From NCBI GenBank assembly GCA_027451445.1, contig DAIDJG010000167.1, positions 1-44,441 of the forward strand: 44,441 bases of DNA, read 5' to 3'. The stretch's first letter is position 1; each line of letters opens with the position of its first letter. The DNA comes from Singulisphaera sp. GTDB taxonomy: Bacteria > Planctomycetota > Planctomycetia > Isosphaerales > Isosphaeraceae. The notes under the pieces are model-generated. The model was not told where the DNA came from and ran no database searches. It worked only from the letters and a program-made list of their open reading frames with translations. Below, piece by piece: positions 18,055 to 42,789 of this stretch. Both the position numbers and the translations under genes were made by a program.

Positions 18055-18284
18055 TCTGGGAGGGAGACAAGTTTTGCTTGCCATCCCAGTTTTCCCAGAA
18101 TACGATGGTTTTGGCATGATGGACGCATTGGGGAGGCGTTTTGGCTCCCTGACGCGGCCCATCGCCCGAGGGGGCTCCATGGAGCGCGTGAGCCGACGAC
18201 GGCTCGAGCGATTCGAAAGCGGGAGCAAGCCACCGCACTCCAAAGCCCTCGGACTCCGACAGCGACGGCTGGGGGAAACCATCG
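18055..18284. other. Spacer between the two paralogues with a hairpin
   Basis: After the first stop codon, CTGGGA...CAAG pairs with CTTG...TCCCAG (about 18054-18103), an interrupted stem with loop TTTTG. The rest (18120-18280) has no coding character and includes a phrase (GGGAGCAAGCCACCGCACTC) that I recall from planctomycete intergenic repeats; no second copy was noticed here. Confidence 0.35.
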
Positions 18285-19595
18285 ATGAGACTTTGGGTCG
18301 CAGCGTTTTTGGTCTTCGGCGGCTGGCTGGGTGCATCGCGAGTGCAGGCCGGCTCTCCGACTTATCATCGGGAAGTCGAGCGTATCCTTCAAAAGCATTG
18401 CCAGGATTGCCACCGCCCGGCTCAGATTGCGCCCTTTCCGCTTTTGACCTACTCGCATGCGCGCAAGCGAGCGGCGGATCTTGCGCGTGTGGCCCGTACC
18501 CATGCGATGCCTCCCTGGCCGCCCTCGGCCGAGGAAGGGGGACCGTTCCGGGGTGCACGCGTGGTCTCTGAGGAGGAGATCGCCACGCTCGAAGCTTGGG
18601 CCAAGGCCAACGCGCCCAAGGGCGACCCGCACGACGCGCCCGCAGCGCGCACGTGGGACTCGGAGTGGACGCTCGGAACGCCGGACGTGATTCTGAAGAT
18701 GCCCGAGCCCTACTCCATCAGCAGTGAGGGGGACGATGAATTCCGGGCGTTCGTGATTCCCTCGGATCTGTCAGAAGGCAAATGGATCTCGGCGATCGAC
18801 TTCAGGCCGGGGAATCCGCGGGTCGTTCACCACGTCATTGTCGCGTTCGACACCAAGAAACTGGCGCGGATCCTCGACAAGGCCGACCCCAAGCCGGGCT
18901 ACAAGGTTTTTGGCGGGTTCGGGATCGTTCCCGCCGGGACGCTCGGCGGCTGGTCCCCGGGCAAGCGTGCAATGCTTGCGCCCGAAGGGACGGGCTATTA
19001 CCTGCCGCCGGACTCCGACATCCTGTTGCAGGTTCACTACCACAAGAGCGGCAAGGCCGAGACCGATTCCTCGTCACTGGGGCTGTACTTCGCGAAGACG
19101 CCGATCGACAAAGAACTGCGCAACAAGACGGTCACGCCGCCCGTGGAAGGCATCCTGGAGATCCCGAGCCTGCTGATCCCCGCGGGAAAGAAGAACCAGG
19201 AAATCACCGGATCGCTCCAAATTGATGAAGATGTGCACATGGTCGGTGTGACGCCTCACATGCACTGGCTCGGGAAAAACTTCCTCCTCCAGGCGACCCG
19301 GCCCGACGGCACCATCGTGCCGTTAATTCGCATTGACCGATGGGACTTCAACTGGCAAGGGAGCTACGAGTTCGAAACACCAGTTGCGCTGCCCAAAGGC
19401 ACGCGTGTGGAGATGGTCGCCCACTTCGACAACTCGGTCTTCAATCCCTACAACCCACGCAAGCCACCGCTCGACGTGCGCTGGGGGGAACGGACCTACG
19501 ACGAGATGTGCATCGCGTTCCTCACCATCACGTATGACGATGAACATCGCGAGAATTCGGTTCCAGGACGCTTCCGCACAGCCAAGGCAAAGTGA
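18285..19595 (+). CDS. Secreted cytochrome c / copper monooxygenase-like (PHM fold) protein, copy 2
   Basis: Paralogue of the preceding gene along its whole length, 436 residues versus 469, lacking the 30-residue C-terminal tail. Signal peptide, then the heme motif CQDCH (C39, C42, H43), axial Met75 in AMPPWPP, and the same copper ligand set: H182-H183, H251/H253, H325/H327 and M408. Tandem duplication is plain from shared phrases such as SPTYHREV, LQKHCQDCHRP, PGNP(K/R)VVHH, LLQVHYHKSGK and TPHMHWLGK. Both copies keep every ligand, so neither looks decayed; they may differ in substrate or expression. GGGGGA lies nine bases upstream of ATG 18285. Convergent with the permease gene, only 30 bases apart. 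Confidence 0.82.
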   Translation: MRLWVAAFLVFGGWLGASRVQAGSPTYHREVERILQKHCQDCHRPAQIAPFPLLTYSHARKRAADLARVARTHAMPPWPPSAEEGGPFRGARVVSEEEIATLEAWAKANAPKGDPHDAPAARTWDSEWTLGTPDVILKMPEPYSISSEGDDEFRAFVIPSDLSEGKWISAIDFRPGNPRVVHHVIVAFDTKKLARILDKADPKPGYKVFGGFGIVPAGTLGGWSPGKRAMLAPEGTGYYLPPDSDILLQVHYHKSGKAETDSSSLGLYFAKTPIDKELRNKTVTPPVEGILEIPSLLIPAGKKNQEITGSLQIDEDVHMVGVTPHMHWLGKNFLLQATRPDGTIVPLIRIDRWDFNWQGSYEFETPVALPKGTRVEMVAHFDNSVFNPYNPRKPPLDVRWGERTYDEMCIAFLTITYDDEHRENSVPGRFRTAKAK

Positions 19596-29133: not shown

Positions 29134-32100
29134 CTACTTCACGTGAGCGCCGCGACGGTGCGCGACGTGGAACGGCTTGAGGTGATTGCCCTTCACCACC
29201 GTCCCCGGATGCCCCGTGAGGCTGCGCACAATGGCCACACCGCCGTTCGGCAATACGGCTGTTCCCGCCGCGTTGATGCCGATGAAGTTCTGGAAGATCC
29301 GGTCCCGTGTTGAACCCAGACCCCGAACTTGCACGCCGTTGCCGTCATTGCCCGAGATCACGTTGTTGGGGCCGATCAGGTTGTTCGGAGCATTGTCGAC
29401 ATAAACACCATTTAGATTGTTGGGAACGCTCGCCGTGCCTGCGGCATTGGTGCCAATGAGGTTGCCGGCCACCTTGTTGCCCGCGGACCCCGCGAACCCG
29501 ACGTAAACGCCGCCGAGCCCGTTCCCGGAAATCACGTTGCCCTGCGAGCGCGAGCCGCCGATGAGGTTGCTCGGCGAGTTGTCCAGAAGGATTCCGTAGT
29601 AGCGATTGCCGGCGATCTGCTGGCCGTCGGGAGCGATGCCGAGGTAGTTGTTCTGGACGACGTTGCCGCCCAGGTTCTTGAGGAAGATACCCGCATACGT
29701 GAAGTCGTCGATGGCAAGGCCTTTGATCGTGCTGTCGCCTCCCGCGACCGTGAGGCCGCTCACGCTGGCACCCGCAGCGCCGCCTTCCAGCACGACGAGC
29801 GGCGCACCGTTGTAGCCCGGCTGGCTGGTCCCATCGATCGTGATGGGGCGGGTGAGCGTCGGCAGCGGCGAGAGAACGTCGATGACAAACGGCCCAGTGC
29901 CTGGGAAGTCGAATGTAATCGTGCTCGGCCCTGTCCCTGCGTCCGCCTGGAGGATCGCCTGGCGGAGTGAGCCGGCCCCGGCGTCTGCGGTCGACGTCAC
30001 CGCGAACGGATTAAAGAGTCCAAGCGTGGCGATACCTTCCGCCTTGACGATCGAGGCATTGATCGCCGCGGAGAGTTCGAGGGCAAACGTGACGACGCCA
30101 TGGGCGGTCGTGTTCAGAATCGGCACGGTCACTGTTTCCTGGGTCTGCCCGGGCGCAAACGCGAGTGTCCCGCTTGTGGCGACATACTCAACGCCGGCGA
30201 CGGCCGTCTGGTCGGCCGTTTGGTAGTTCACCTGGGTGATCGTGCCGCTAGCGGTGGAGAGTGTGACGACAAACGTGGCGGACGTCGCGCCCGGTGGGAC
30301 CACGACGTTGCTCACGGACAGCAAGGGTGCGCCGATGGTCGAATTGATCGTGGCGGTCCCCTGGGCCTGGCCGAGCGAAGCGCCGGTCGGGTCCGTGAGG
30401 TTGACGAAGAACGTGTTGCCGGTCTCGAACAGCGACGTCGCGGGGACCGGGACCGTGATCGTCTGCTGGGTCTGGCCAGGGTTGAACGTGAGTGTTCCGT
30501 TGGTCGGGGTGTAAGCCCCGGAAGCCGCGGTCGCGCTGCCGTCGGCCGTGCTGTAATTCACGGTGACGGGAGCGCCGCTGGGCGCGGAGAGCGAGACGGT
30601 GAAGCGTGCGAGGTTGGTCCCGATCTCCGGCTGCGTCACGTTGACGTCGTTGATGGAGACCGAAGGCTGAGCCACCGGGCTGAGGATCGTACCCGTTCCC
30701 TGGCTCGTGCCGAGGGTTGCGTTGCCTGGATTGCTCAGGGTCAACAGGTACGTGAGCGTCGGCTTGTAGACGGTCTGCGACGGAACCACCACGTTGATCG
30801 TCTGCGACGTCTGGCCGGGGGCGAACGTCAGCGTTCCGCTGACAGGCTCGTAATCCACACCCGCCAGGGCGGTAATGTCCGAGGTGGCGTAGTGCACCGT
30901 GATCGGCAGGGCGCTTGGGCCCGACAGGCTTACCGTGAACGCCTCATTGACCGAGCTCGCGGAGGGCGCGGTGACGCTGGGGTTGCTGACGGAGACCGTG
31001 GGAGGCGGATTCTGATCGAGGATCGTGCCGGTCCCCTGCGGGACCGCAATCGTCGCGTTCGTGGCACCGCTGAGCGTAACGTTGAAGTTCGTATCGGGGC
31101 CAGGCAGGTTGCTCCCGCTGATCGTCACGGGAATCGTCTGAACGGTCGTACCGGCGGGGAACTTGAGGATCCCGCTGGCGGCGGTGTAATTGGTTCCCGC
31201 CAGCGCCGTGCCATTCGACGTGGCATAGTTGACGGTCACATCGACCGGGCTCACCGAAGAAAGGGTCACATTGAAGGTCGCGGTCGACGTCGATCCTTGC
31301 GCGGCCTCAGGTGCGCTCACGTTATTGATCACCAGGAACGGCGCAGGGTTGTCATTGAGGATCGTGCCCAGTCCCTGTCCCGCGGAGATTGTCGCGTTCG
31401 AAGGGGCACTGAGGGTCACGGCAAAGATCGTGTTCCCATTGAGCGGGGACTGGGGCAGGACGGGGACCGTAACCGTCGCCGTGGTCGTCTGTGAAGCCCC
31501 GCCCAAAGTCGCCGTGCCGGTCGTCGCCGTGTAGTCGGCGCCAGCCTGGGCCGTCACGTTGGACGTCGCGTAATTGACGGTCACCGGCAGCGTGGTCGGG
31601 CTCGAAAGGCTGATGGTGAAGACCGCGTTGACGCCCGTCGTCGGATTCCCCACGACCTGGACGCTGTTGATGCTCAGGGTGGGCCCCGGCACGTTATCGA
31701 CGATCGTGCCCGTGCCCGTCGCCGCGGTGATCATCGAGTTCACCGGGTTGGTCAGCCCGAGCGTGAATTGCGTCGTCGGACCCGGTCCCACCGCGGGCAG
31801 CACCGTGACGGGCACATTCTGACTGGTCACTCCCGGCTGAAAGGTCAGCGTGCCGCTCGTGGCAAGATAGTTCGTACCGGCCTTGGCGGTGCCGTCGGCC
31901 GTCGCGTACTGCACGGTGACCACCTGCGCACTCGGCGAGGCGAGTGAAACGGTGAAGTTCTCCGTGGTGGACGTGGATGAGTTTTGCGTCGCCGACGCGT
32001 TGCTGACCGAGAGTCCCACCGGGTTGTTCGCGTCAATGATGGTGCCGATCGCCTGGTTCACGGCGACCGTGGCGTTCGTGGCCGAGCTGATGTTGACTGC

Positions 32101-32802
32101 GAACGTAAGGTTCCCCTTCGGAATGCTGCTCCCGATGATCGGAATGCTAATGTTCTGCGACGTCTCACCCGGTGTGAGCGTGACCGTGCCGCTCATGGCC
32201 GTATAGTCGACCCCCGCGTGCGCGGTCAGATCGGCCGTGCTGTAACTGACCACCACGGGCAAACCACTCGCCGTCGAGAGTGAGATCGTCGCCGTGGCAT
32301 TCACGATCCCGCTGGTCGTCTCTTTCTGGCTGAAGTTTGCGATGCTCACCTGGGGCGGCAGGTTGTTGTCGATAACAGTTGCGGTGCCGACTCCGCCTCC
32401 CGGGGCGATGGTGTCGCCGATGGGGTTGATCAGGTTGAGCGTGAAGTTGGTCGACGGCCGGAAGAGCTTGTCGTCCAGGATCGGCACCATCACCACCTGG
32501 GCCGTCTGACCCGGGGCAAACTTGACCGTTCCCGTCGTCGACGTGTAGTCGATCCCCGCGACACCCGTACCGTCCGCGGTGAAGTAGTCGACCGTGACCT
32601 GCTGCGTCAGCGGTGCCGAGAGCGAGACGACGAACAGAGCGTTCGTCCCGCCCGCGATCTCGGTGACCGTCGTGTCCCCCACGGAGATCGTGAGCAGCGT
32701 GCGCGTTTCCAGCCCTTCGAGCTGCGGGCGCAAACGCGAGCGAAGCGATGCCGGGCCCGTGCGACGAGGTCGATCGAGGCGACGTCCTTGTCCGGCTGGC
32801 AT
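29134..32802 (-). CDS. Calx-beta repeat surface protein with C-terminal beta-helix
   Basis: Large exported adhesin-like protein. ATG 32802 is chosen because GGGAGG lies eight bases upstream and the N-terminus (MPAGQGRRLDRPRR) leads into the planctomycete export motif LEGLETRTLL at about 28-37; the frame extends 94 residues further upstream without family character. Eight Calx-beta repeats of about 110-120 residues follow, each with variants of NYATADGTA-AG-DYT--SGTLTFAPGQT; such domains usually bind calcium and form rods. The last 270 residues are a right-handed beta-helix typical of parallel-helix surface proteins (NNVISGNDGNGVQVRG and similar NxxxGN turns). 1222 residues. The C-terminal ending RRGAHVK is basic and short. 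Regulation unknown. Confidence 0.88.
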   Translation of the reverse strand: MPAGQGRRLDRPRRTGPASLRSRLRPQLEGLETRTLLTISVGDTTVTEIAGGTNALFVVSLSAPLTQQVTVDYFTADGTGVAGIDYTSTTGTVKFAPGQTAQVVMVPILDDKLFRPSTNFTLNLINPIGDTIAPGGGVGTATVIDNNLPPQVSIANFSQKETTSGIVNATATISLSTASGLPVVVSYSTADLTAHAGVDYTAMSGTVTLTPGETSQNISIPIIGSSIPKGNLTFAVNISSATNATVAVNQAIGTIIDANNPVGLSVSNASATQNSSTSTTENFTVSLASPSAQVVTVQYATADGTAKAGTNYLATSGTLTFQPGVTSQNVPVTVLPAVGPGPTTQFTLGLTNPVNSMITAATGTGTIVDNVPGPTLSINSVQVVGNPTTGVNAVFTISLSSPTTLPVTVNYATSNVTAQAGADYTATTGTATLGGASQTTTATVTVPVLPQSPLNGNTIFAVTLSAPSNATISAGQGLGTILNDNPAPFLVINNVSAPEAAQGSTSTATFNVTLSSVSPVDVTVNYATSNGTALAGTNYTAASGILKFPAGTTVQTIPVTISGSNLPGPDTNFNVTLSGATNATIAVPQGTGTILDQNPPPTVSVSNPSVTAPSASSVNEAFTVSLSGPSALPITVHYATSDITALAGVDYEPVSGTLTFAPGQTSQTINVVVPSQTVYKPTLTYLLTLSNPGNATLGTSQGTGTILSPVAQPSVSINDVNVTQPEIGTNLARFTVSLSAPSGAPVTVNYSTADGSATAASGAYTPTNGTLTFNPGQTQQTITVPVPATSLFETGNTFFVNLTDPTGASLGQAQGTATINSTIGAPLLSVSNVVVPPGATSATFVVTLSTASGTITQVNYQTADQTAVAGVEYVATSGTLAFAPGQTQETVTVPILNTTAHGVVTFALELSAAINASIVKAEGIATLGLFNPFAVTSTADAGAGSLRQAILQADAGTGPSTITFDFPGTGPFVIDVLSPLPTLTRPITIDGTSQPGYNGAPLVVLEGGAAGASVSGLTVAGGDSTIKGLAIDDFTYAGIFLKNLGGNVVQNNYLGIAPDGQQIAGNRYYGILLDNSPSNLIGGSRSQGNVISGNGLGGVYVGFAGSAGNKVAGNLIGTNAAGTASVPNNLNGVYVDNAPNNLIGPNNVISGNDGNGVQVRGLGSTRDRIFQNFIGINAAGTAVLPNGGVAIVRSLTGHPGTVVKGNHLKPFHVAHRRGAHVK

Positions 32803-33132
32803 CAGCGTGACCTCCCTGCGCAACCCGAACCGACACCGGCGGCATGGCGCGCCGGCGCGGGAGCTCGGACCATGAGCTTCCTCCGAAACATACACGCCAA
32901 ATGGCAGTGAGGCCGGAGGGCGAGCGCGTTTTCTGCGGATTCTCGTCCGGTTTCGCCAACTTACGCGATTGCAATGCGCCCGCCGCCTGAAGCGGGTACG
33001 TTCACAAACGAGCGGAAATGACGTTTCCGGGGAGAAATCGGGGCCAAGGAGGTACGGCGATGTGAGAGAGAATATCTCATACATCGTATTCGGCTCTGGT
33101 GCAACGTGAAGTTAAGTCGGAACCGGAAAAAT
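32803..33132. other. Intergenic region upstream of the Calx-beta gene
   Basis: It contains the GGGAGG ribosome site of the Calx-beta gene and an AT-rich part at 33050-33160. A weak promoter-like pair on the minus strand (TTGCAC, 17 bases, TATGAG, near 33080-33105) is possible but poor. No gene supported. Confidence 0.4.
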
Positions 33133-35301
33133 TCATAAGTTTTTTTCAAGGGCGGGAGCACTGAGCCCAAACGTCGCCGCGGAGATGGATTCGTGCGCAC
33201 TCGCCAGGCGCACGTTGTAGTAGGCCCGAAGCACCTCCTGAGCCGTCTGGTCCTCGTCGATTTCCTCGCCCCGGCGCTGGCTTGCCAGCCGCTCCGCGAC
33301 CCGCGCGGCAGAGCGTGCGCAGACCGAAAGTCCGACGGCATCCGCGCGCTTTGCGAGCGCCTGTAGCTCGTCGATCCGCCGAAATGCCGCCAGGCCGCCG
33401 GCCCCGATTCCTTCGAGCCGCAGGGCAAGCTGCCCCAGGAGCTGCCCGAGCGCTGTCGACGAGTCTCCGGCATCAAACTCCTCGTCAACTTCCTCAGACT
33501 CCTCGGGAGCACTCGGGAACACGCTGCCGGAGGCCGGTCGAATCGCCGTCTGTGCCTTGTCCGAATCGAGGGTCAGGTTCAGAGTCTTCGTCCCCGCATG
33601 GACTGCGATCGGCTCCACGACGAGACGGCCCGCCTCGAGACGAAGCTGACCCAGCACCGTTTGCGCCTGGGCAGGGTCGAGCGTCTCTAGAAGGCGAATC
33701 GCCCCTTCGGTCTCCGGCGTATTCGGCAGCACCAGCGGAAGCATGCGACCCTCCCCATCCACGACGAGCCGGACGAGCTCCTGGCGAACCTCATCAAACT
33801 GACCGGGGAGCCACACCTTGGGCGCAATCAAAACGATCGCTTCGCGCTCGTCGCGGTCGCCGAGCCCCCCGCCGAAGAGCCGCACCGCCCGCGAAACAAG
33901 GTCGGACCACCGATCCAGCAGCGGCGCCTGGCTCGGGTCGCTGGGCCCCGTGGCAAACCCAAGAGTCGATGGCCGGCCCGAGAACCTCCCGTTCCGGTTG
34001 CGCCACGCATTCGAAAGGCGGATCGACTGCCGGCTCGCGAACGACGGCGAGTCAATCCCGGACCAGGGTCCTTCGCCGTCGTAACGAATTTGGGGATCGA
34101 AGTCGCTCACGGTGGTAGGCCGGGCGTCGGTCCAGGTCGACCACGAGCGCGCGGAGACATCCCAGAAGTAAAGCGTCAGACCCGCGAACCCGCTCCGAGC
34201 CCTCCAGCGCCGGGCACCGAGACCGATGAGCGTCAGCTCACCCACCGCTTCGTAAGACGTGCGATGTTCCCCCACCAAGGCATGGGTCGGACGAACTTGC
34301 AGCGCGTGCCGCAAGGCCTCGAGACGGGCAGCCACCGACAGCAAGCGTGCCGAGTCCGACTGGGCGTTGCGCGCCAGGCTGAGCTCGACCTCATCGGCAA
34401 GCGTGTTGAGCGAGCGCTCCAACCTCGGCAAGTCCACCCCGTGCGCCGAGACGGCCAGCGTACGGAGGCGTTCGGCCGTCGCTCTCGAGAGCCGTGATGA
34501 CCCGGTCGCGACGAGCGAAGTGAGGACGTGTCCGACCGACGCGAGGATCTCTTCCCGAGTCCGCGGCGCATCCGTTGATTCCTCGCGCATCAACGACTCG
34601 GATCCGGCCAGGTCGCGCGCGCCTCGCGAGGCCTGAAAGGCGAGGACGGCGGCGACCTTGTGCTCGCAGGCGCCCGTAGCGTGACACGAGCACACCATCC
34701 CCGCCAGGCCCGCGCCCGGCATCCAGCGGCACTGCACGTTGCGGGACGGGAAGCGAATGATCAAGGCACTCGCGAGTTCAAACTCGGCGGTCAATCCCAG
34801 CGCCAGCGCCTTCGAAGCCTTGGCAGCAAGTGGCTTGCCGGCCCACTTCGTCAGCTCCTCGTCGGTGATCGCCAGGATGTCGTCGCCGGTGGCTTGGGTG
34901 GGTTCCGAGGGCGGAGCATCCGTCGCCTCCGCCGGGGCCGACTCGCGCACAAAGATCAAGGCGCTGAGAATGTGCCGGCAGATCCCGCCCGCGGGGCAGT
35001 TGCACGTCGATTGAGCAGGCGGCAAGGCGAGCCGCACCACACCGTCGCCGACCTCCATCTGGAGGCGTTCGCCGTCGGCGTCGAGATTTGCTGGCTGCGA
35101 CGTCTCAAGGTCCTTGCGTGCGCGGCGCACGAGACCCTTGTTCGCAAGCGCCGCCAGAGCGTCGTCATCAAACGCGGCGAGGGCCGCGCGAAAGTGAGCG
35201 AGAGCACCTAACGTAAGGAGGGAAACCTCATAACTCCCCCCCTTGGGAAGGGGGGGTTGGGGGGGTGGGGATTGGCGGTCCGATGTGTCCAACTCAGCCA
35301 T
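33133..35301 (-). CDS. Tandem SWIM zinc-finger protein
   Basis: Two SWIM fingers with identical C-x-C-x5-C-x-H spacing: CNCPAGGICRH (C100-H110) and CSCHATGACEH (C204-H214). SWIM fingers bind DNA or proteins. The remaining 500 residues are helical N-terminally and beta-rich C-terminally, with no catalytic motif I know. It is the fourth and last gene of the MoxR-DUF5682-vWA-SWIM operon, 165 bases after the vWA gene. The ATG at 35301 has a strong AGGAG six bases upstream, so it is the likely start; consequently residues 12-24 (PPPQPPLPKGGSY) are encoded by a palindromic intergenic-type repeat (35231-35270). The conserved domain probably begins near LGALAHFRAALAAFDD. Similar SWIM genes accompany this operon type in other bacteria (recollection). 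Confidence 0.83.
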   Translation of the reverse strand: MAELDTSDRQSPPPQPPLPKGGSYEVSLLTLGALAHFRAALAAFDDDALAALANKGLVRRARKDLETSQPANLDADGERLQMEVGDGVVRLALPPAQSTCNCPAGGICRHILSALIFVRESAPAEATDAPPSEPTQATGDDILAITDEELTKWAGKPLAAKASKALALGLTAEFELASALIIRFPSRNVQCRWMPGAGLAGMVCSCHATGACEHKVAAVLAFQASRGARDLAGSESLMREESTDAPRTREEILASVGHVLTSLVATGSSRLSRATAERLRTLAVSAHGVDLPRLERSLNTLADEVELSLARNAQSDSARLLSVAARLEALRHALQVRPTHALVGEHRTSYEAVGELTLIGLGARRWRARSGFAGLTLYFWDVSARSWSTWTDARPTTVSDFDPQIRYDGEGPWSGIDSPSFASRQSIRLSNAWRNRNGRFSGRPSTLGFATGPSDPSQAPLLDRWSDLVSRAVRLFGGGLGDRDEREAIVLIAPKVWLPGQFDEVRQELVRLVVDGEGRMLPLVLPNTPETEGAIRLLETLDPAQAQTVLGQLRLEAGRLVVEPIAVHAGTKTLNLTLDSDKAQTAIRPASGSVFPSAPEESEEVDEEFDAGDSSTALGQLLGQLALRLEGIGAGGLAAFRRIDELQALAKRADAVGLSVCARSAARVAERLASQRRGEEIDEDQTAQEVLRAYYNVRLASAHESISAATFGLSAPALEKNL

Positions 35302-35402
35302 GGGCCGCTCCTCTTCGCTTGACGGTTGAGGGGTACGGTACCAGCCGGTTGCGAGCGCTCACTCCCCACCCCCCCAACCCCCCCTTCCCAAGGGGGGGAG
35401 TA
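35231..35402. repeat. Inverted doublet of the C7TTGGGAAG7 repeat straddling the SWIM start codon
   Basis: Copy 1 (35231-35270, forward) lies inside the SWIM coding sequence; copy 2 (35361-35402, inverted) lies upstream of it. Both have the full core plus TTGGGGGGGTGGGG tail and are nearly identical. The start codon (35301) and its ribosome site fall in the 90-base loop between the arms. On the mRNA the arms are complementary over about 38 bases. Same repeat as 10445-10628. Confidence 0.88.
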
Positions 35403-35466
35403 ATATGTTCGCGCATTGCGAACGGGGATTGACGATCGCTGATGTGCAGCCCAACAGTGAGGCAAT

Positions 35467-36726
35467 TTAGGACAGCACCCGGGCCATCCATTCGGCGAGC
35501 CTCCTCGGAGTCAGTGCCGCCACTTCGGCCCCCGCGTCAACGCAACGTTCGGCCATCTGGCGGTCGTACGCCGCGTTCGCCTCCGAGTCGAGCGCTGCCA
35601 GGCCCAGCACGCGCGCGCCCGATTCCCGCAGGCGCCGGATCGCCGCGATCATTCGCTCGGGGGGACCGCCTTCGAAGAAGTCGGTGACGAGGACGAGAAT
35701 GGTTCGCGTCGGCGAGCGGACCAGGGTCTCGCAGTAGCCGAGGGCCCCCGCGATGTCGGTGCCCCCGCCGAGATGAACGCTCATCAACACTTCCACGGGG
35801 TCGTCCACCTGGTCGGTCAGGTCGACGACCGCCGTGTCGAAAGCCACCAGGCTCACCCGAAGCGCCGGCAACCCCTTGAAAATCCCCGCCATCACGGCGC
35901 TATGGATCACGGAGTCCATCATCGAGCCGCTGCAATCGACGGCCATGATGATATGCCAGGGCATGTGGTGCTCGACCCTGGAGAAGAACAGGAGCGACTG
36001 GAGAATGATCTGCTTGCGCTCGGCATCGTAGTGCTTCAGGTTCTCGCGAATCGTGCGGTGAAAGTCGAGGTTCCGCGCGACCTTGAGCCGGCTCCGCCGC
36101 TGGCGATTGAGACGTCCCCAGAGCACCTGGCGAACATCCTTCGCGATCTTCCGGCGCAGCTCCTCGACAACCTGCCGGACGATCTTCCGAGCCACCTCCA
36201 ACACCTTCGGGCTCATCAACTGCCGAAACGACAACACCGCCTTCAGCAGCTCGTAGTTCGGCTCCAGCTTTTGGAGGACCTGCTCGTCGGTCACGAGCTC
36301 CGTCATCCCGTACCGTTCGAGCGCGTGCCGTTCGAGGACCTCGACCGTCTCCTTGGGGAAGAGCTCGCGCACGTCGTGCAGCCACTCCGGAATGGCCAGC
36401 ACGCTCTCTCCCGGCCCGCCCTGTCGATCCGTACGGACGCCTCGCCCGCCGTATTCGCGACCGTAGAGATAGTCGAGCACGCGCTCCATGCGATCGTAAC
36501 GTCCTTTGCCGTCGAGACCACCCCCGGCGCCGGTCCCTCGGCCGGACGTCGGTCGCCCCTGCCCCCCGGCACCTCGCCCCTGGCCTTGACCCTGACCCTG
36601 GAACTGCCCCGAGGGCCCCTGGCAGCCTCCAAGCGCAGGGTCCGAGAACCGGCCCAGCACGAGCCGCCAGCGCGCCAGCGCAAGCTCATCACGCTCGTCA
36701 GCGGGCAAAGTAGTCCTCCAATCCAT
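35467..36726 (-). CDS. CoxE-like vWA domain protein
   Basis: Partner protein of MoxR AAA+ ATPases. The C-terminal vWA domain has a complete MIDAS: DCSGSM (D264 onward), Thr323 in GGGTDIAG, and Asp349 in LVTDFFEGG, so it should bind a divalent metal and a ligand. The N-terminal half is helical and basic (about 110-245), preceded by a Gly/Gln-rich low-complexity stretch (QGQGQGQGRGAGGQG, about 43-57). ATG 36726 (MDWRTTLPADERDE) is preferred over an upstream TTG at 36747. It overlaps the DUF5682 gene by 29 bases, indicating coupled translation. Such vWA proteins typically bridge a MoxR chaperone to its client. Confidence 0.87.
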   Translation of the reverse strand: MDWRTTLPADERDELALARWRLVLGRFSDPALGGCQGPSGQFQGQGQGQGRGAGGQGRPTSGRGTGAGGGLDGKGRYDRMERVLDYLYGREYGGRGVRTDRQGGPGESVLAIPEWLHDVRELFPKETVEVLERHALERYGMTELVTDEQVLQKLEPNYELLKAVLSFRQLMSPKVLEVARKIVRQVVEELRRKIAKDVRQVLWGRLNRQRRSRLKVARNLDFHRTIRENLKHYDAERKQIILQSLLFFSRVEHHMPWHIIMAVDCSGSMMDSVIHSAVMAGIFKGLPALRVSLVAFDTAVVDLTDQVDDPVEVLMSVHLGGGTDIAGALGYCETLVRSPTRTILVLVTDFFEGGPPERMIAAIRRLRESGARVLGLAALDSEANAAYDRQMAERCVDAGAEVAALTPRRLAEWMARVLS

Positions 36727-39076
36727 CACTGCGCAACGAATCCGCAACGCGCCGATTCACCTCGACGGCTTGCAACAAGTCGTGCTCGGAGAATCCCGCG
36801 AGATCCATCCGGCCCATCCGCCCGGGCGAAACGCACGCACGCGCTGCGATGGTGTCGGCGACGACGTCGCACTCGCGCGGTGTTAGATCGGAGAAGGCGA
36901 GCCGAAGCTCGGGCAACACCTGAATGAAATGGTCCTCATCCCAGTCGCGGAGGACTTCCTGGAACGGGTCGAGCAGCTCCGGCACTTCCCACAAGGCATT
37001 CCGCGCCGAACGCAACAGGCCCCGCACAAAGGCGGCACCCGCGCGTCCGCGATCGCTCGGGCTCAGCAAGTGACCGCGAAGCTGGACGACCAGCTCCGAC
37101 GGTTCCGCCTGCCCATCGCCAAACAGCATCCCCAGCACCGCACCTCGGATCGCGGCCGCCCCGCTCGGAACCGCGAGCAGATCACGCAGCCGGGCCCACC
37201 GCAGCTCGCGACGGCTCGGCGTATCACCCAACGTCCGCGCCACCTGCGCCAGTGCGTTCAACGCATCGAGCACCGGTTTCTCATCCGCCTCGGCGGTTCC
37301 GGCCAGACCGGGAAGCAGATAGCACGCGCGGTCGTACGCCGCGCCGGCGAGCTCGACCGGCCCGACAAGATCATGAGCCTCGAGCGGCTCTCGAGACACA
37401 TGCAGCACCAGCAGCAGCTCGGCCGCTTCCACGAGCGAGACGAACGACGCATCCTCGGCGACGAGCCGGCCGGTCCTCGCGATCAGGTCATGCGCCTGGC
37501 GGTGCAGACCCATCCGGCAGGCCTCCAGCACCAGCCGCGCCGCGACGTCCGCGCGCCGTCCCTGTCCTTTGCGCTCGGCTTCCTCGAACCGCTCCAGCAC
37601 CAGCGCGGTGGCCGCTTCCTCCAGGGTCGAGCCATAGAGCGAGCGTTCGATGAGGCTCGACTCGGCGGCGGGGGTCCAGCGGTACTTCCAGACCTCGTGG
37701 ATCCGCTCCAGCCGCTCGCCCGTGACGTAGTCGGGACCGGTCACATACTCGGCAAACGGGACCCCCAGGAACTTGAGCCGGTGGAAGAACCGGCTTGTGT
37801 CGCGGTCCTTGGCCTTGCGGTAGAGATCGAGCTTCACCTCGCGCGCCTCGATGCGCTCGACGTCGATCTTGAGCCGCGTAGCCGTGCGCCGAAAGTCCTC
37901 GACGATCGGCGGTACCCCGGCCTCCGGGGGGACATCGCCAATCCGGTCGCCCGCGAGCAGCTTGCGCGCCTGCGCCAGGATCGCGACTCCCTCGACGTCC
38001 GCGGCCCCTTTGATGAAGACCGAGCGCACGCCGTCCATCACATCTTCGCGCGAAGGTTTCGCGTGCCCCCGGAGTTGCGCGAGCCGCCGCGACTGCTCCA
38101 GCGCCGCGATCGCCTCGGCCGACGACGCCCCCGACCACCGCTTGCGGCACGCACGCGCCAGCTCGACCACGAGCGAGGCGGCGTCCTTCCCCTCCCAGCG
38201 ACGCTGGTAGAACTCCGGCGCCGGCATGCCGCTGGCGTACCCGTTGAGCCTGTCGAGCTGCTCGAACCCGTACCGCATCAACGCAACCAGCGCATCCGCC
38301 GGCGCCACCTTCACCGGCCGAGGCAGGGCAGGGGAAGTCGTCGGCAAGGCCAACGTGTGGAATCCCCCGGTCACCACCACGACGCGACCCTTCTCCTCCT
38401 CCACCGCCGCAGCCATCGCCGCCTCGCGCGTGTCGCATCCCTCGGCCGCGAGCATCTCCGGCGTGTAGTCGCGCCGGGCGAGAGCGCAATACGCGAGCAC
38501 GTCGCGCATGAACGTCGCCGTGTCTCGCTGCTCGTAATCCACTTCGTAAAGGTGATCCCACAAGTCGTCGGGATCGCGTGCCCCGGTGCGCTCGCAGGTT
38601 TCGCGCAAGAGCCGGCTGTGGGCGAGATAGTGATCCTCGAGCAGGCTCAACGGTTTCGACCCGCCATGCTCCCGGCCCGCGAGCACCATCTCCGGAAACG
38701 TCAAATCGACGAACCGCGCCCTTGCCCCGACGGCCGCCGCCGCGCGGATCGCAGCCAGCTCGGGCGAGTAGTCGCAGAGCGGATAATAGGCCGAATGCCG
38801 GATCGGCCCGATGTCGCCTTCAATCCGCTGGACGAACGTCGTGAAAACCGCGACGGGAAGCCGGGTCTTCGGATGCGTCAACAGCGGGATCAGGAAGCTC
38901 GCATCGCGCGGACCTTCGATCAACACCGCCTCAGGCCGGCGCTCCCGGATCAACCGATCGACGTGCCAGGCGCACGCCGGGCTGTGATGCCGGACCGGGA
39001 AATAGATCACGCGGGCGTCGAGGTCGACGTCCACGTTCAAGGAAGGCTCTTGCGGGCCTCGAGCAGCTCGGTCCAC
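36698..39076 (-). CDS. DUF5682 family protein
   Basis: Large (792 residues) protein of a family without known function. The N-terminal 260 residues carry conserved polar motifs: PVRHHSPACAW (28-33 core), VLIEGP (E54) and VTGGFHT (GGFH 237-240). The order His - Glu - GxxH recalls the TIKI/TraB/ChaN/EreA superfamily of putative metal-dependent enzymes, so this part may be catalytic (inference). The C-terminal 500 residues are long, helical and Arg/Glu/Leu-rich, resembling a TPR-like or HEAT-like scaffold. The GTG at 39076 has AAGGAGGGAGG just upstream, supporting that start despite a 40-base overlap with the MoxR gene; the 3' end overlaps the vWA gene by 29 bases. Confidence 0.78.
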   Translation of the reverse strand: MDRAARGPQEPSLNVDVDLDARVIYFPVRHHSPACAWHVDRLIRERRPEAVLIEGPRDASFLIPLLTHPKTRLPVAVFTTFVQRIEGDIGPIRHSAYYPLCDYSPELAAIRAAAAVGARARFVDLTFPEMVLAGREHGGSKPLSLLEDHYLAHSRLLRETCERTGARDPDDLWDHLYEVDYEQRDTATFMRDVLAYCALARRDYTPEMLAAEGCDTREAAMAAAVEEEKGRVVVVTGGFHTLALPTTSPALPRPVKVAPADALVALMRYGFEQLDRLNGYASGMPAPEFYQRRWEGKDAASLVVELARACRKRWSGASSAEAIAALEQSRRLAQLRGHAKPSREDVMDGVRSVFIKGAADVEGVAILAQARKLLAGDRIGDVPPEAGVPPIVEDFRRTATRLKIDVERIEAREVKLDLYRKAKDRDTSRFFHRLKFLGVPFAEYVTGPDYVTGERLERIHEVWKYRWTPAAESSLIERSLYGSTLEEAATALVLERFEEAERKGQGRRADVAARLVLEACRMGLHRQAHDLIARTGRLVAEDASFVSLVEAAELLLVLHVSREPLEAHDLVGPVELAGAAYDRACYLLPGLAGTAEADEKPVLDALNALAQVARTLGDTPSRRELRWARLRDLLAVPSGAAAIRGAVLGMLFGDGQAEPSELVVQLRGHLLSPSDRGRAGAAFVRGLLRSARNALWEVPELLDPFQEVLRDWDEDHFIQVLPELRLAFSDLTPRECDVVADTIAARACVSPGRMGRMDLAGFSEHDLLQAVEVNRRVADSLRSDGLEDYFAR

Positions 39077-40185
39077 AGCCCTCCCTCCTTCTGGCTTCGC
39101 TGTTTCACAACGACGTCGAAGTACTGCCGGAGCTTCTTCAGGTCGTCTGGATTATCCTTGAGCACCGCTCCCGCGAGATGCCTCGCGACGTGTCCCGGGT
39201 TGAGCCGCCCGTCGCCGTAGTAGTAGGCATCCAGACCCGCCGCCATGCTCACCGACACCGCCTCCGCCGTCGACATCACCGTACTCGGCTTCTCGAGCTG
39301 GATCCCCTCGGACGAGACCCCCTCGCGCAGGTCGTGGAACACCGTCACGAGCAGTTCCACCACCGACCGCTCGACCGTCGCTGGCGCCTGTGACTCGCGC
39401 AAGAGCCGGTCGCACTCGCGGCTCACCAGGTCGATTTCCTGCTTCAGCTCTCGAATCGGGTGCACCGTCTCGAAATTGAACCGTCGCTTCAACGCGCTCG
39501 ACATCTCGTGGACCCCGCGGTCCCGGATATTCGCCGTCGCGATCACGTTGAACCCCGGCTTCGCGTGCAGGACCCGCTCGGCCCCGTCGAGCTCCGGAAT
39601 GATCATGACCTTCTCGGACAGGACACTCACCAACGTATCCTGGATCTCCGGCGGACAGCGTGTGATCTCCTCGAACCGCACGAGCAACCCGTCGCGCATC
39701 GCCACGTACAGCGGCGAGGCCACCAGGGCGCGCTGGGTCGGCCCTTCGGCCAGCAGCAATGCGTAGTTCCACGAATACTTGATATTGTCCTCGGTCGTCC
39801 CCGCGCTCCCCTGGATCGCGTTGACCGACGTCCCCGAGATTGCCGCCGCGAGCAGCTCGGACAGCATCGACTTCGCCGTCCCCGGCTCACCGACGAGCAT
39901 TAGCCCTCGGTTGCTGCTCAGCCCGATAATCGCCCGTTCGACCAGCACGTCGTCGCCAAAGAACTTGCGGCCGACGTCCGGCTTCTTCCCACCGCAGATA
40001 AACGTCCTTATGGCCCGGGGCGACAACTTCCATCCCGGCGGCCGAGGCCCCGTATCGGCTTCGGCCAGCGCCCGCAGCTCCGCCTCGTACAACATCTCGG
40101 CCGAGGGTCGCAACACCGGCGCCGCGCCGTCCTGCGCCACTGGGGCCGGTGCCGCCTCTCCTTCGCTACGTTGCCGCTTGGCCAT
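39037..40185 (-). CDS. MoxR-family AAA+ ATPase
   Basis: First gene of the four-gene operon. Walker A GEPGTAKS (99-106), Walker B-like LLVRFEEI (167-174), sensor-1 Asn219 in IATANIRDRG, and the arginine segment ALKRRF (231-236). The pattern GLMLVGEPGTAKSMLSELLA is typical of the MoxR branch of AAA+ proteins, which act with vWA partners as chaperones that mature or remodel specific complexes. The N-terminal 50 residues are Ala/Pro-rich, the C-terminus a helical lid. ATG 40185 is preceded by GAGGG. It is preceded by the palindrome at 40249-40322. 382 residues, longer than the usual 310-340 owing to the N-terminal extension. Confidence 0.9.
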   Translation of the reverse strand: MAKRQRSEGEAAPAPVAQDGAAPVLRPSAEMLYEAELRALAEADTGPRPPGWKLSPRAIRTFICGGKKPDVGRKFFGDDVLVERAIIGLSSNRGLMLVGEPGTAKSMLSELLAAAISGTSVNAIQGSAGTTEDNIKYSWNYALLLAEGPTQRALVASPLYVAMRDGLLVRFEEITRCPPEIQDTLVSVLSEKVMIIPELDGAERVLHAKPGFNVIATANIRDRGVHEMSSALKRRFNFETVHPIRELKQEIDLVSRECDRLLRESQAPATVERSVVELLVTVFHDLREGVSSEGIQLEKPSTVMSTAEAVSVSMAAGLDAYYYGDGRLNPGHVARHLAGAVLKDNPDDLKKLRQYFDVVVKQRSQKEGGLWTELLEARKSLP

Positions 40186-40248: not shown

Positions 40249-40322
40249 GGCCACGGATGAAACACGGATTTAAAACTCAAAGGATCTCTTATCCGTGTTT
40301 CATCCGTGTTTCATCCGTGGCC
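40249..40322. repeat. GATG-unit inverted repeat upstream of the MoxR operon
   Basis: Left arm GGCCACGGATGAAACACGGA (40249 on); right arm 40291-40322, its complement, with one additional CCGTGTTTCAT unit. Units are CACGGATGAAA about 11-12 bases apart. Loop about 21 bases. It lies 64 bases before the MoxR start codon, inside the likely leader. Confidence 0.82.
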
Positions 40323-41176: not shown

Positions 41177-42241
41177 TCACTTGGCGACGAGCGGCTGGGT
41201 ATAGGCGGACACGTTCCAAACCTTGAACTCGCCCCATGTCGTGAGGTTGCCGGCGGCCGAGGCGAGAATCTTGCCGTCGGGAGTGAAGGCCACGCCGTGA
41301 ACTCGCGAGTCCTTATGCGCGGGGAACGCGCCCCGCGGCTTGCCCGTGGCCATGTCCCACATGCGGATCTTGCCGTCCTGACATCCGGCCGCCAGCACCC
41401 GGCCGTCGGGCGAGAACGCCAGGGTCCAGGCCTGCGTCCGACTGCCCGGCAGCCGGGCGCGCACCTTGTTCGTGGTCAGGTCATAGATCACGATCGAAAA
41501 GTCTCCCAGCGCACAGGCGAGAGTCTTCTCGTCGGGAGAGAGGACAAGCGAATTCGTCATCTTCCCCCACCCCCACGCGGGGAGCGTGGTGCGGACGGTT
41601 TTCGTCTCGAGATCCCAAATTCGGACCGACCCGTCAAAGTAGCCCCCGTACAGCGTCTTGCCATCAGAGCTGATCGCCAGCGCATTCGAGAGCAGCGTCT
41701 TGCCGTCCTTCGCCAATCCGGGATCGAGGGCACCCACTTCGTGGCCGGTGGCGATCTCCCAGATCTTGATCGGCCCCGGGCCGCCGGTGATGACCGTTCG
41801 GTTATCGGGGCTAAACGTCATGCACGTCACGGGGAACGGCGCGGGGACGGTGTATTCAACCTTGATGGTGCGTATTTCCGTACCTCGGTTCGCCTTCCAC
41901 ACCTTCACAAACGGGTTGCCCACCGACGAAGCGATCATGCTGCCGTCGCGGCTGTACGCGAGCCGCTCAACGCTTCCGCCTCCCTCCAGGGTGAAAAGAG
42001 GCTGTCCCGACGCCAGGTCCCAGACCTTGACCTTGTCGCCGCATTCCGACGTCGCGACGGTCTTCCCGTCGGGTGCGATCGCGAGTGTCTCGACCAGACG
42101 CGTGCGCCGATCCAGGAGTGACACCGGCTTCGCGGTCTCGGTGTTCTCGGCAGCGGCCAAGGGTCGTTCCTGGGCCGCGAACAATCCCGACACAGCGACC
42201 AATAACCATAAGGGCCATCCGCCACGCTGAACGAATCGCAT
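41177..42241 (-). CDS. Secreted seven-repeat WD40 propeller protein
   Basis: ATG 42241 (MRFVQRGGWPLWLLVAVSGL) gives a signal peptide, cut near residue 30; an earlier in-frame start adds 23 residues ahead of it and is rejected. Seven WD40-type blades follow, each ending in a W-D-like dipeptide: KVWDLASG, KVWKANRG, KIWEIATG, RIWDLETK, VIYDLTTN, RMWDMATG and KVWNVS, with SPDG/SPDN turns before each. Seven blades suffice for a closed propeller. WD40 proteins are interaction platforms and are unusually frequent in planctomycetes. 354 residues, no additional domain. No operon partner. Confidence 0.87.
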   Translation of the reverse strand: MRFVQRGGWPLWLLVAVSGLFAAQERPLAAAENTETAKPVSLLDRRTRLVETLAIAPDGKTVATSECGDKVKVWDLASGQPLFTLEGGGSVERLAYSRDGSMIASSVGNPFVKVWKANRGTEIRTIKVEYTVPAPFPVTCMTFSPDNRTVITGGPGPIKIWEIATGHEVGALDPGLAKDGKTLLSNALAISSDGKTLYGGYFDGSVRIWDLETKTVRTTLPAWGWGKMTNSLVLSPDEKTLACALGDFSIVIYDLTTNKVRARLPGSRTQAWTLAFSPDGRVLAAGCQDGKIRMWDMATGKPRGAFPAHKDSRVHGVAFTPDGKILASAAGNLTTWGEFKVWNVSAYTQPLVAK

Positions 42242-42789
42242 TGTTCCGCTTCCCCTGAACCCGAGAACCGACGAAGTTCGGACAGATCCAACCCGGGGCG
42301 CATGCATCACGCGCGCACGAAAACCCGCAGCCCTTGCACTCGGAGCGAAGCGATGCCCGCGGCGTCGGACCCGAAGCTCGTAACGCGCGCAACGGTGAGG
42401 CGGATCACGAACGGCGTATACCGCCGAGTGCTATCTCAAACCTAGTCCCGACTTCGCCACGATGCGCGGCACCAGTTCAAGTGACTTGGGAAGCGGTGGA
42501 AACGGACCACGCACTCAATAGAGGACACTTGAGCAAATTCCAAGGACCTTGTTGCGTCTGACACAGCGAGATGAGGAACCGGAAAAACAACGCCGTCCTC
42601 GCAAACTGCCGCGATTTCATGCCCGGTCAGAGTCCGCGTTGGCGTCATATGCTCCCAAGCAGAATCCTCGACCTCACAGGGTTTCCCCTTCACTCATGGG
42701 GACGACCCAGACTGCGCTCGCGCAGCGCATTTGGCACACCACTTGCAGCCCGAGGCGCTCAACCTCTAAGTCATTGAGAGGGCGAGACC
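42242..42789. other. Intergenic region containing a sigma-54 promoter
   Basis: Between the divergent WD40 and holin-like genes. The only clear element is the sigma-54 promoter at 42731-42747. The rest has no supported gene; enhancer sites for a sigma-54 activator would be expected in 42550-42680, but I could not recognise a palindrome there. Confidence 0.5.
42731..42747 (+). promoter_or_regulatory. Sigma-54 (RpoN) promoter
   Basis: TTGGCAC-ACCAC-TTGCA matches the -24/-12 consensus TGGCAC-N5-TTGC(A/T) in every defined position, with the required ten-base spacing between GG and GC. Transcription would start near 42758, about 32 bases before the TTG start at 42790. Such promoters need an AAA+ enhancer-binding activator. 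Confidence 0.72.

Follow-up and report, generated by a model that had tools for sequence, protein, structure and literature searches.

A 44,441-nucleotide stretch of Singulisphaera sp. DNA (hereafter, the window) carries genes for a MoxR-type ATPase, a DUF5682 protein, a CoxE-like vWA protein, and a SWIM protein, all four on the minus strand between positions 33133 and 40185. The locus raises the question of what these four proteins form together and on what such an assembly would act.

Layout of the operon

The four-gene, same-strand set reported by the first-pass annotation was present in full, and the family of each ORF was confirmed by Pfam (Table 1). The 40-base overlap read between the MoxR and DUF5682 genes holds with a DUF5682 start at GTG 39076, which is preceded by a purine-rich, ribosome-binding-like sequence; similarity to relatives begins only near 39037, not at this GTG. 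Likewise, the 29-base overlap between DUF5682 and vWA holds with the vWA start at ATG 36726, while the longest vWA ORF, from TTG 36747, gives an overlap of 50 bases. The window MoxR has the Walker A motif GEPGTAKS, and the vWA MIDAS, described as complete, could be read at every residue (D-C-S-G-S, T, and D). Both zinc fingers ascribed to the SWIM protein were also found, with Pfam reporting only the first. The SWIM gene does not overlap the vWA gene, a point absent from the first-pass annotation: a MITE-like element separates the two, and the SWIM start codon lies inside it. In the nearest relative, L005, the SWIM start apparently falls within the end of the vWA gene. The arm of the repeat upstream of MoxR has 46 matches in the genome at two or fewer mismatches.

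Table 1. Features of the operon and its surroundings, in window coordinates
Feature	Position	Strand	Details
MoxR-type AAA+ ATPase, YehL counterpart	39037..40185	-	382 aa; Pfam AAA_5 7e-36
DUF5682 protein, YehM counterpart	36698..39076	-	792 aa from GTG 39076; PF18934 9e-110
CoxE-like vWA protein, complete MIDAS, YehP counterpart	35467..36747	-	VWA_CoxE 7e-52; likely start ATG 36726
SWIM zinc-finger protein, YehQ counterpart	33133..35301	-	722 aa; Pfam SWIM 3e-4
Proposed Tiki-superfamily domain of DUF5682	38183..39037	-	residues 1-285 counted from 39037; profile match
DUF5682 H17	38987-38989	-	invariant 39/39
DUF5682 E41	38915-38917	-	invariant 39/39
DUF5682 R204	38426-38428	-	invariant 39/39
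DUF5682 H227	38357-38359	-	invariant 39/39
First SWIM motif CxCx5CxH	34972..35004	-	residues 100-110; Pfam SWIM match
Second SWIM motif CxCx5CxH	34660..34692	-	residues 204-214; pattern search and alignment with relatives
MITE-like element, 167 bp	35234..35400	.	terminal inverted repeats, 39/40 bases identical
Interspersed repeat, inverted 19-base arms	40251..40320	.	upstream of MoxR

Relationship to E. coli yehLMPQ

The first-pass annotation had left the arrangement unnamed and had missed its counterpart, the E. coli set yehL-yehM-yehP-yehQ, which is alike in families, order, and one-strand layout, with identities of 50, 30, 47, and 27%, respectively. The window MoxR aligns with YehL, which passages of PMC3893208 give as the namesake of a MoxR subfamily, at 50% identity over 357 aa (E 3e-119, 338 bits), versus 23% over 102 aa (27 bits) with RavA; between the two subfamilies compared, YehL and RavA, it is by alignment nearer to YehL. 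The SWIM protein and YehQ share 27% identity over 374 aa (E 6e-13), and the window DUF5682 falls inside a 15-row yeh clade of the DUF5682 tree (support 98/96). Judged on these sequence comparisons, the window operon belongs to the yehLMPQ type. Of 5426 complete E. coli genomes, 5162 carry 80% or more of yehLMPQ, and no function for it was found in the literature searched.

Linkage of the genes across DUF5682 loci

We tallied 51 DUF5682 loci, omitting L070 (a contig-end fragment below the 200-bit cut). Because every locus was retrieved with DUF5682 as the query, its own constancy is built in. The loci span Planctomycetota, Armatimonadota, Pseudomonadota, Actinomycetota, Deinococcota, Bacteroidota, and Fusobacteriota. 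A MoxR gene lies within 1.2 kb upstream of DUF5682 in 49 of the 51, the remaining two ending at a contig end; a vWA gene is in the cluster at all 51 (one is broken) and adjoins or is fused to DUF5682 in 50, with a single DUF4132 gene intervening at the last. The pattern named beforehand as counting against a joint system, DUF5682 mostly lacking MoxR and vWA neighbors, is thus not what the loci show. All 78 MoxR or vWA HMM matches in 709 kb of fetched stretches adjoin a DUF5682 gene. In the 10.9-Mb source genome, VWA_CoxE matches strongly just twice (at 179 and 178 bits, the next best being 36), and each of these genes adjoins one of the only two DUF5682 genes, a pairing far above chance.

The distance matrices of MoxR, DUF5682, and vWA correlate with r of 0.90-0.91 over 42 loci (L047, L070, L079, L057, L058, L006, and L075 omitted), and none of 1000 permutations reached as high. 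DUF5682 is fused to vWA at six loci, and starred branches of the tree, which omits L070 and L079 (the second E. coli copy), place the origin of these fusions at two or more points. The two independent fusions, a direct observation like the orthology and the near-universal linkage, give indirect support only to a physical interaction among the proteins. That the four proteins form one unit is well supported.

The Walker A pattern fits 48 of 49 MoxR proteins and the Walker B pattern 29 of 49, and 7 of 51 vWA proteins miss the MIDAS pattern; of four inspected, L050 and L054 are without the usual Thr, and L059 and L061 keep it. In a PDB sequence search, MoxR matched Midasin and AFG2 homologs, and neither vWA nor SWIM had a match. 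A genome-contig search with a single protein returned only two loci, and three viral-contig searches returned no DUF5682 relatives. One 14-kb record labeled bacteriophage encodes MoxR-DUF5682-vWA; its phage origin is putative, and it is no sign of phages using the system.

A candidate hydrolase domain in DUF5682

The guess that DUF5682 is an enzyme, made originally from its His/Glu/GxxH motifs, gains support from profile comparison. The N-domain scored 38.3 against ChaN (E 6.7e-5, HHalign probability 63.6%) and 36.1 against TraB (E 2.5e-4, probability 42.9%), beside 37.9 for ChaN against TraB, an accepted pair. In controls with this domain, the best of 100 column shuffles reached 24.5 (ChaN) and 25.0 (TraB), reversed profiles 17.5, and six other families at most 16.2; ChaN itself scored up to 23.8 against those six. 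The ChaN profile set was drawn from the wider phylum, and no ChaN or TraB genes were found in 21 near relatives. With the full-length DUF5682 profile, ChaN was matched at a probability of 34.7% (E 4.1e-4) and vWA at 99.7%, the latter probably because fused members are in the alignment, so the N-domain alone was used thereafter. Under default settings, only residues 4-117 (~100 columns) align with ChaN, the second motif being reached only under a permissive setting. With the yeh-type subset, the match shrinks to 27-34 columns around the second motif, and the DUF5691-type subset scored 33.7 against TraB and 26.5 against ChaN, the latter barely over the 24.2 of its shuffles and the 23.9 of a vWA decoy.

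The Tiki precedent, as given in passages of PMC6254334, comprises two His, two Glu, and a basic residue. In DUF5682, two His (in GxxH or PxxH, then GxxH), one Glu, and one Arg are invariant in 39/39, and V or I stands in place of the first ExH Glu of Tiki proteins, again in 39/39. R204 aligns with an Arg in TraB and a Trp in ChaN and is equated with the Tiki basic residue by position alone. AlphaFold models from three-sequence input, of DUF5682 (775 aa, pLDDT 50.3) and its N-domain (290 aa, pLDDT 39.6), are too poor for fold claims; the predicted C-terminal helical region, at about residues 470-700, has pLDDT mostly of 70-90. Foldseek with the first DUF5682 model gave no match at E ≤ 0.001, the weak matches being mostly helical repeats, and an HMM search of PDB sequences gave no Tiki protein. 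Collectively, the profile matches suggest a place for the DUF5682 N-domain within the Tiki/ChaN/TraB hydrolase superfamily, a link that would be new here, and the enzyme class is moderately supported.

Genomic neighborhood and alternative readings

Two earlier remarks on the neighborhood stand: no oxidoreductase was found among the neighboring ORFs scanned, and a Pfam and ORF scan found no DUF5691 gene beside the operon. Related clusters do include DUF5691, as stated in the first-pass annotation, at 15 of the 51 loci; one is a second MoxR-DUF5682-vWA version in the source genome, on contig C283. Outside the operon lies a WD40 gene (41177-42310). We consider it unlikely that MoxR and vWA mature a remotely encoded enzyme, as NorQD and RavA-ViaA do, with DUF5682 and SWIM as specificity adaptors and neither client nor enzyme. 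Pairs described in passages of PMC9976466 and PMC3893208 do serve a metalloenzyme or a respiratory complex, the large helical part predicted for DUF5682 would be of scaffold type, and the window has metal-enzyme candidates, the nearest being two weak Cu2_monooxygenase matches and a HemN-like radical-SAM gene, 13-20 kb off on the other strand. However, no metalloenzyme was seen among 10 flanking ORFs from 9 loci, and of four gene kinds checked there for recurrence, only a ligase-like gene recurs in non-close relatives (two). The double fusion of DUF5682 to vWA and the invariance of the proposed catalytic positions also count against this reading.

Less probable than a remote client, in our judgment, is a DNA-damage remodeling machine with SWIM as its DNA-binding part and DUF5682, which lacks one Tiki Glu, as a scaffold devoid of catalytic activity. 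A DUF4132 gene within 12 kb, frequent but not universal and hence not diagnostic of the yehLMPQ family, marks 12 of 15 yeh-clade rows versus 0 of 35 others (L070 and L079 omitted from the count), and molR, beside the E. coli operon, is listed as a LexA-regulated or SOS gene in passages of PMC11039860, PMC4576408, PMC8533742, and PMC3978071. DNA-repair genes adjoin loci singly (a glycosylase fusion at L004, a ligase at L037 and L053, and MutL at L006), but these are isolated cases. Moreover, molR is a pseudogene (yehH) in K-12, and a 27-kb E. coli stretch has no LexA-box-like site above chance (one at two mismatches, inside yehM, with 0.28 expected). Least probable of the three is a conflict or anti-phage system with logic akin to the vWA-MoxR ternary systems, themselves proposed as conflict systems in passages of PMC7159879 and PMC10910872. 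Its appeal lies in a patchy spread, with a DUF5682 match in 38 of 392 Planctomycetota genomes (flanks were taken from 36, omitting the fragmented G089 and G067, below the family cut-off), and in three plasmid copies near restriction-modification, toxin-antitoxin, nuclease, recombinase, or IS genes (10 of the 31 plasmid records with a DUF5682 match were examined). Yet 10 proteins compared with the PADLOC models (2023 library) gave no match, and the bpMoxR ternary model stays under its cut-off (20.4 versus 27 bits), with no other ternary-system model among the Pfam matches listed for the window. The E. coli operon is a stable chromosomal locus by the genome count above, and the window vWA is without a C-terminal effector, as its vWA domain stops five residues short of the protein end.

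A proposed ATP-driven machine

The reading we prefer, to which we give just under an even chance, is a yehLMPQ-type machine in which a MoxR ring and a vWA adaptor control a Tiki-type DUF5682 hydrolase, with SWIM providing the targeting. MoxR (YehL-type) would form the ATP-driven ring, and vWA (YehP-type) would serve as its MIDAS-bearing adaptor, as NorD does for NorQ. DUF5682 (YehM-type) would be the dedicated partner, its helical scaffold bearing a putative hydrolase domain of the Tiki superfamily, and the ring and adaptor may activate, load, or gate this hydrolase. Recruitment to the target, which is probably a nucleic acid or a protein bound to DNA, would fall to SWIM (YehQ-type), and the machine perhaps acts in DNA-damage stress. 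Within this scheme, we infer the hydrolase activity, the direction of control from motor to hydrolase, the substrate, the trigger, the SWIM role, and the link to DNA damage. A bolder version, which we hold to be rather doubtful, makes DUF5682/YehM an overlooked Tiki-superfamily hydrolase and the first under a MoxR-vWA motor; with SWIM, and with SOS-linked DUF4132 in the yeh branch, it would form an ATP-driven hydrolytic machine whose targets are damaged or bound to DNA and which occurs in most E. coli and at least seven phyla. The yehLMPQ set is a gap in E. coli annotation, and the suggested Tiki link would make a family of unknown role a candidate enzyme whose named residues can be tested in E. 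coli. If a MoxR-vWA pair does come with its own hydrolase partner, the known scope of these chaperones would widen.

Comparison with known systems

At the E. coli yeh locus, DUF4132 genes (the pseudogene yehH, and yehI) adjoin the operon, whereas a scan of the window found none and the two DUF4132 genes of the source genome lie on contig C126; the MITE-like element between vWA and SWIM is a further difference of the window from yehLMPQ. The SWIM-DUF5691-MoxR-DUF5682-vWA clusters of Rhizobium, Deinococcus, and Methylosinus plasmids and of contig C283 share the MoxR-DUF5682-vWA core, but in these SWIM comes first and matches another HMM, DUF5691 is added, no DUF4132 gene lies within 12 kb, and DUF5682 forms a clade separate from the yeh type. 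The vWA-MoxR-VMAP and related ternary systems also combine MoxR, vWA, and a third protein; their VMAP, iSTAND, FtsH, or beta-propeller partners were not found by Pfam in the window operon, the partners there being DUF5682 and SWIM only, and the text of PMC7159879 contains no word beginning with yeh, SWIM, or DUF568. RavA-ViaA is likewise a MoxR and vWA pair, though RavA belongs to another MoxR subfamily, as its short alignment with the window protein indicates. NorQ-NorD, a MoxR ATPase and a MIDAS-bearing vWA protein that insert iron into cNOR according to PMC9976466 and PMC13036017, resembles the window pair in both components; its client is nitric oxide reductase, whereas in the window no oxidoreductase adjoins and the linked partner is DUF5682. 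With the Tiki/ChaN/TraB proteins, finally, DUF5682 shares a profile match and invariant His and Glu positions, and it differs from them in the V or I at the first ExH Glu, in its long helical extension, and in being tied to a MoxR-vWA pair.

Gene content and surroundings of the operon

The window comprises an entire 44,441-base contig of a 10.9-Mb genome in 622 contigs. Re-reading it bore out the coordinates, overlaps, vWA MIDAS and two SWIM zinc fingers that the first-pass annotation had described for a four-gene operon. The MoxR, DUF5682 and vWA ORFs overlap while the SWIM ORF does not, and third-position G+C is 0.78–0.86 across all four genes. The vWA-SWIM overlap, present in the nearest relative, seems to have been broken in the window by a MITE-like element. 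Its end repeat has 210 genome matches (≤3 mismatches), and of eight further sites that were aligned, most keep both ends and vary in the interior. The repeat upstream of MoxR has 46 genome matches, some overlapping (≤2 mismatches), and the reversed control had no match. Judged by Pfam matches of 20 further ORFs, the remainder of the window is unremarkable. It has ATP synthase genes at its start and also carries a permease, an M28 peptidase, a HemN-like radical-SAM gene, the two ORFs with weak Cu2_monooxygenase matches and several ORFs without a match. None of the Pfam-matched genes in this set adjoins the operon, whose direct neighbours encode a Calx-beta and a WD40 protein.

Features of the operon and its surroundings in the window
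Feature	Position	Strand	Remark
MoxR	39037–40185	minus	first in transcription order
DUF5682	36698–39076	minus	second in transcription order
CoxE-like vWA	35467–36747	minus	third in transcription order
SWIM	33133–35301	minus	fourth in transcription order
MITE-like element	35234–35400		167-bp; holds SWIM start codon
Repeat with inverted 19-base arms	40251–40320		upstream of MoxR
1316-aa protein, eight Calx-beta stretches, possible beta-helix region	29134–33084		adjoins operon
WD40 repeat protein	41177–42310		upstream of operon
Two neighbouring ORFs, weak Cu2_monooxygenase C-domain matches	16645–19595	plus	Pfam

Linkage of MoxR and vWA genes to DUF5682

A single-protein scan of genome contigs returned two loci with the same four genes, in a Planctomycetales MAG (DUF5682 68% identical to the window) and an Armatimonadota MAG (57%, with MoxR split over two ORFs). 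Of 392 Planctomycetota genomes, 38 had a DUF5682 match, and in 37 it exceeded the family cut-off. Flanks were taken from 36 of these 38 genomes, from E. coli K-12, from 10 of the 31 matching records in a plasmid collection, from a single phage-labelled record and from two other contigs. With a 200-bit cut, this yielded 51 DUF5682 loci, E. coli being counted twice. As loci were picked by DUF5682 alone, adjacency of MoxR and vWA was not built in. In 49 of 51 loci a same-strand MoxR gene lay at most 1.2 kb upstream, the other two having contig ends 185 and 425 bases away, and vWA was downstream of or fused to DUF5682 in 50; in the remaining locus, from Agrobacterium, a DUF4132 gene separates the two. 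The refuting condition named in the first-pass annotation, DUF5682 homologues mostly lacking MoxR/vWA neighbours, does not hold. Of the 51 loci, 42 had a SWIM protein no more than 12 kb away (three weakly scored, at 42–46 bits), and 15 had DUF5691. In planctomycete, Armatimonadota and window sequence totalling 709 kb, every one of the 78 MoxR and vWA HMM hits was beside DUF5682. Pairwise distances of the three proteins correlated at 0.90–0.91 over 42 loci (0 of 1000 permutations as high), a value to which shared species history contributes. The vWA gene of a Methylosinus plasmid cluster, in three ORFs (L075:10232–11400), is probably broken. The phage-labelled record (MT835988.1, 14 kb, faecal, label unverified) carries MoxR-DUF5682-vWA and is perhaps a bacterial contig.

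The E. coli counterpart

The four families recur in E. coli K-12, in unchanged order, as yehL (MoxR), yehM, yehP (vWA) and yehQ (SWIM), to which the window proteins are 50, 30, 47 and 27% identical (E-values 3e-118 to 6e-13). The window MoxR scores 338 bits to YehL versus 27 bits to RavA, and YehL gives its name to one MoxR subfamily (PMC3893208). E. coli annotation already shows this type of operon, so the window locus counts as one of its members. Among complete E. coli genomes, 5162 of 5426 have at least 80% of yehLMPQ. Such retention is more in keeping with a maintained role in housekeeping or stress than with a defence gene of rapid turnover. The operon lies inside a 29-kb deletion of a genome-reduced strain and is hence dispensable there (PMC10652928). 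A transcriptome paper includes yehM in its list of biofilm genes with expression in colonic fluid (PMC12114223). An E. coli plasmid typed as conjugative (NZ_CP103756.1) carries the whole operon in an IS26-flanked block resembling the chromosomal yehI to mlrA region.

Two branches, fusions and DUF4132

A second cluster of the window's genome, on contig C283 (L004:6542–15745), encodes SWIM, DUF5691, MoxR, DUF5682, vWA and an HhH-GPD/uracil-DNA-glycosylase fusion on one strand, the last ORF overlapping that of vWA by 29 bases. The earlier remark that related clusters include DUF5691 is therefore right for this sister type. The two DUF5682 proteins are 28% identical over 496 aa, and the genome's two strong VWA_CoxE and two best AAA_5 matches are those of the two operons. 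A maximum-likelihood tree was built from 50 DUF5682 rows, with branches labelled by gene content. The 15 DUF5691-type rows form a single branch (100/100) together with one locus where DUF5691 was not found; the yeh-type branch holds 15 rows, the window and one fused row among them (98/96). Of the 15 rows in the yeh clade, 12 had DUF4132 no further than 12 kb away, versus none of the 35 other rows (Fisher p 3.7e-9, a nominal value given the relatedness of the rows). The window has no DUF4132 gene; contig C126 of its genome carries, away from the operon, two tandem genes, each HEAT plus DUF4132 (L084:9094–15422), resembling the E. coli tandem yehH-yehI. DUF5682 and vWA form a single ORF in six loci (L047, in its second copy, and L049, L057, L058, L059 and L061), for which the tree requires at least two origins. 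That fusion happened repeatedly is good, though indirect, evidence of the two proteins working in contact.

In the literature covered, which excludes subscription papers and preprints, we found no paper naming DUF5682 and, among the matches listed, no functional study of a yehLMPQ-type operon; the only papers sharing at least two of the four yeh names were one with a table on genome reduction and one listing Shigella deletions. Within that literature, no earlier report is known of the proposed hydrolase assignment, of the two branches, of repeated DUF5682-vWA fusion or of the link with DUF4132, which the present analysis adds.

A proposed Tiki/ChaN/TraB-like domain in DUF5682

Invariant residues among 39 diverse members include R16-H17, E41, D111, W160, E165, R188, R204, M208, G224 and H227, and we take the pattern RExxM...VVxGxxH to be reminiscent of ChaN/TraB proteins. 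At a lax Pfam threshold, 4 of the 39 members matched ChaN (PF04187; best 0.11) and one matched TraB (0.007); families besides these and DUF5682 never matched more than two. Against profiles of 30 ChaN domains and 8 TraB-family proteins, the N-domain scored 38.3 (E 6.7e-5, probability 63.6%) and 36.1 (E 2.5e-4, probability 42.9%), respectively, compared with 37.9 for the accepted pair ChaN and TraB. The best of 100 column shuffles reached 24.5 and 25.0, reversed profiles 17.5 and six other families at most 16.2. The ChaN alignment covers residues 4–117 by default and extends to 235 at a permissive setting, which places H17 on the GExH histidine, E41 on the ChaN Glu and H227 on the second ChaN histidine. 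R204 aligns with Arg in TraB and with Trp in ChaN. The yeh-type subset scored 37.7 (ChaN) and 31.7 (TraB), limited to 27–34 columns round the second motif, and the DUF5691-type subset 26.5 against ChaN, close to shuffles at 24.2, and 33.7 against TraB.

From these profiles, the N-domain likely belongs to the Tiki/ChaN/TraB superfamily, and we lean slightly towards retained catalysis; we are cautious on both, given how short the subset matches are and that R204 meets no basic residue in ChaN. A Tiki structure paper reports that endopeptidase activity depends on two His and two Glu together with a conserved basic residue (PMC6254334). DUF5682 keeps two His, one Glu and a candidate basic residue, but has V/I for the first Glu in 39 of 39 members.

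Competing explanations and proposed mechanism

A possible link to DNA damage comes from the DUF4132-type gene molR (yehH, a pseudogene in K-12), which adjoins the E. coli operon and is listed as LexA-regulated or SOS in four papers (PMC11039860, PMC4576408, PMC3978071, PMC8533742); the last also has DUF4132 and WGR genes rising when the Deinococcus repressor DdrO is depleted. DNA-repair genes, namely the glycosylase fusion, a ligase (two loci) and MutL, sit beside single loci. The ATP-dependent DNA-ligase-like genes (L037:16226–17695, L053:4815–6392) are 31.8% identical to each other. A 27-kb E. coli stretch held no LexA box above chance, and with these observations together a DNA-damage role is a tentative lead. 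The narrower proposal of a DNA-damage remodelling machine, with SWIM binding DNA and DUF5682 as a catalytically dead scaffold, would draw on the same neighbours and on the missing first Glu; we consider it improbable. A MoxR-vWA motor acting with a Tiki-type DUF5682 hydrolase, targeted by SWIM, is our best explanation, at just short of an even chance. Both estimates reflect the short subset matches and the R204 discrepancy with ChaN.

In the simplest form of this motor-hydrolase explanation, DUF5682 would be what the motor acts on or with: MoxR-vWA may load metal into it, open its active site or feed it substrate, and the SWIM protein may supply the target. MoxR rings work together with a vWA protein that binds the client through its MIDAS, and NorQ-NorD inserts iron into nitric oxide reductase in this manner (PMC9976466, PMC13036017). 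Whereas nitric oxide reductase is the client of NorQ-NorD, the linked partner in the window operon is DUF5682.
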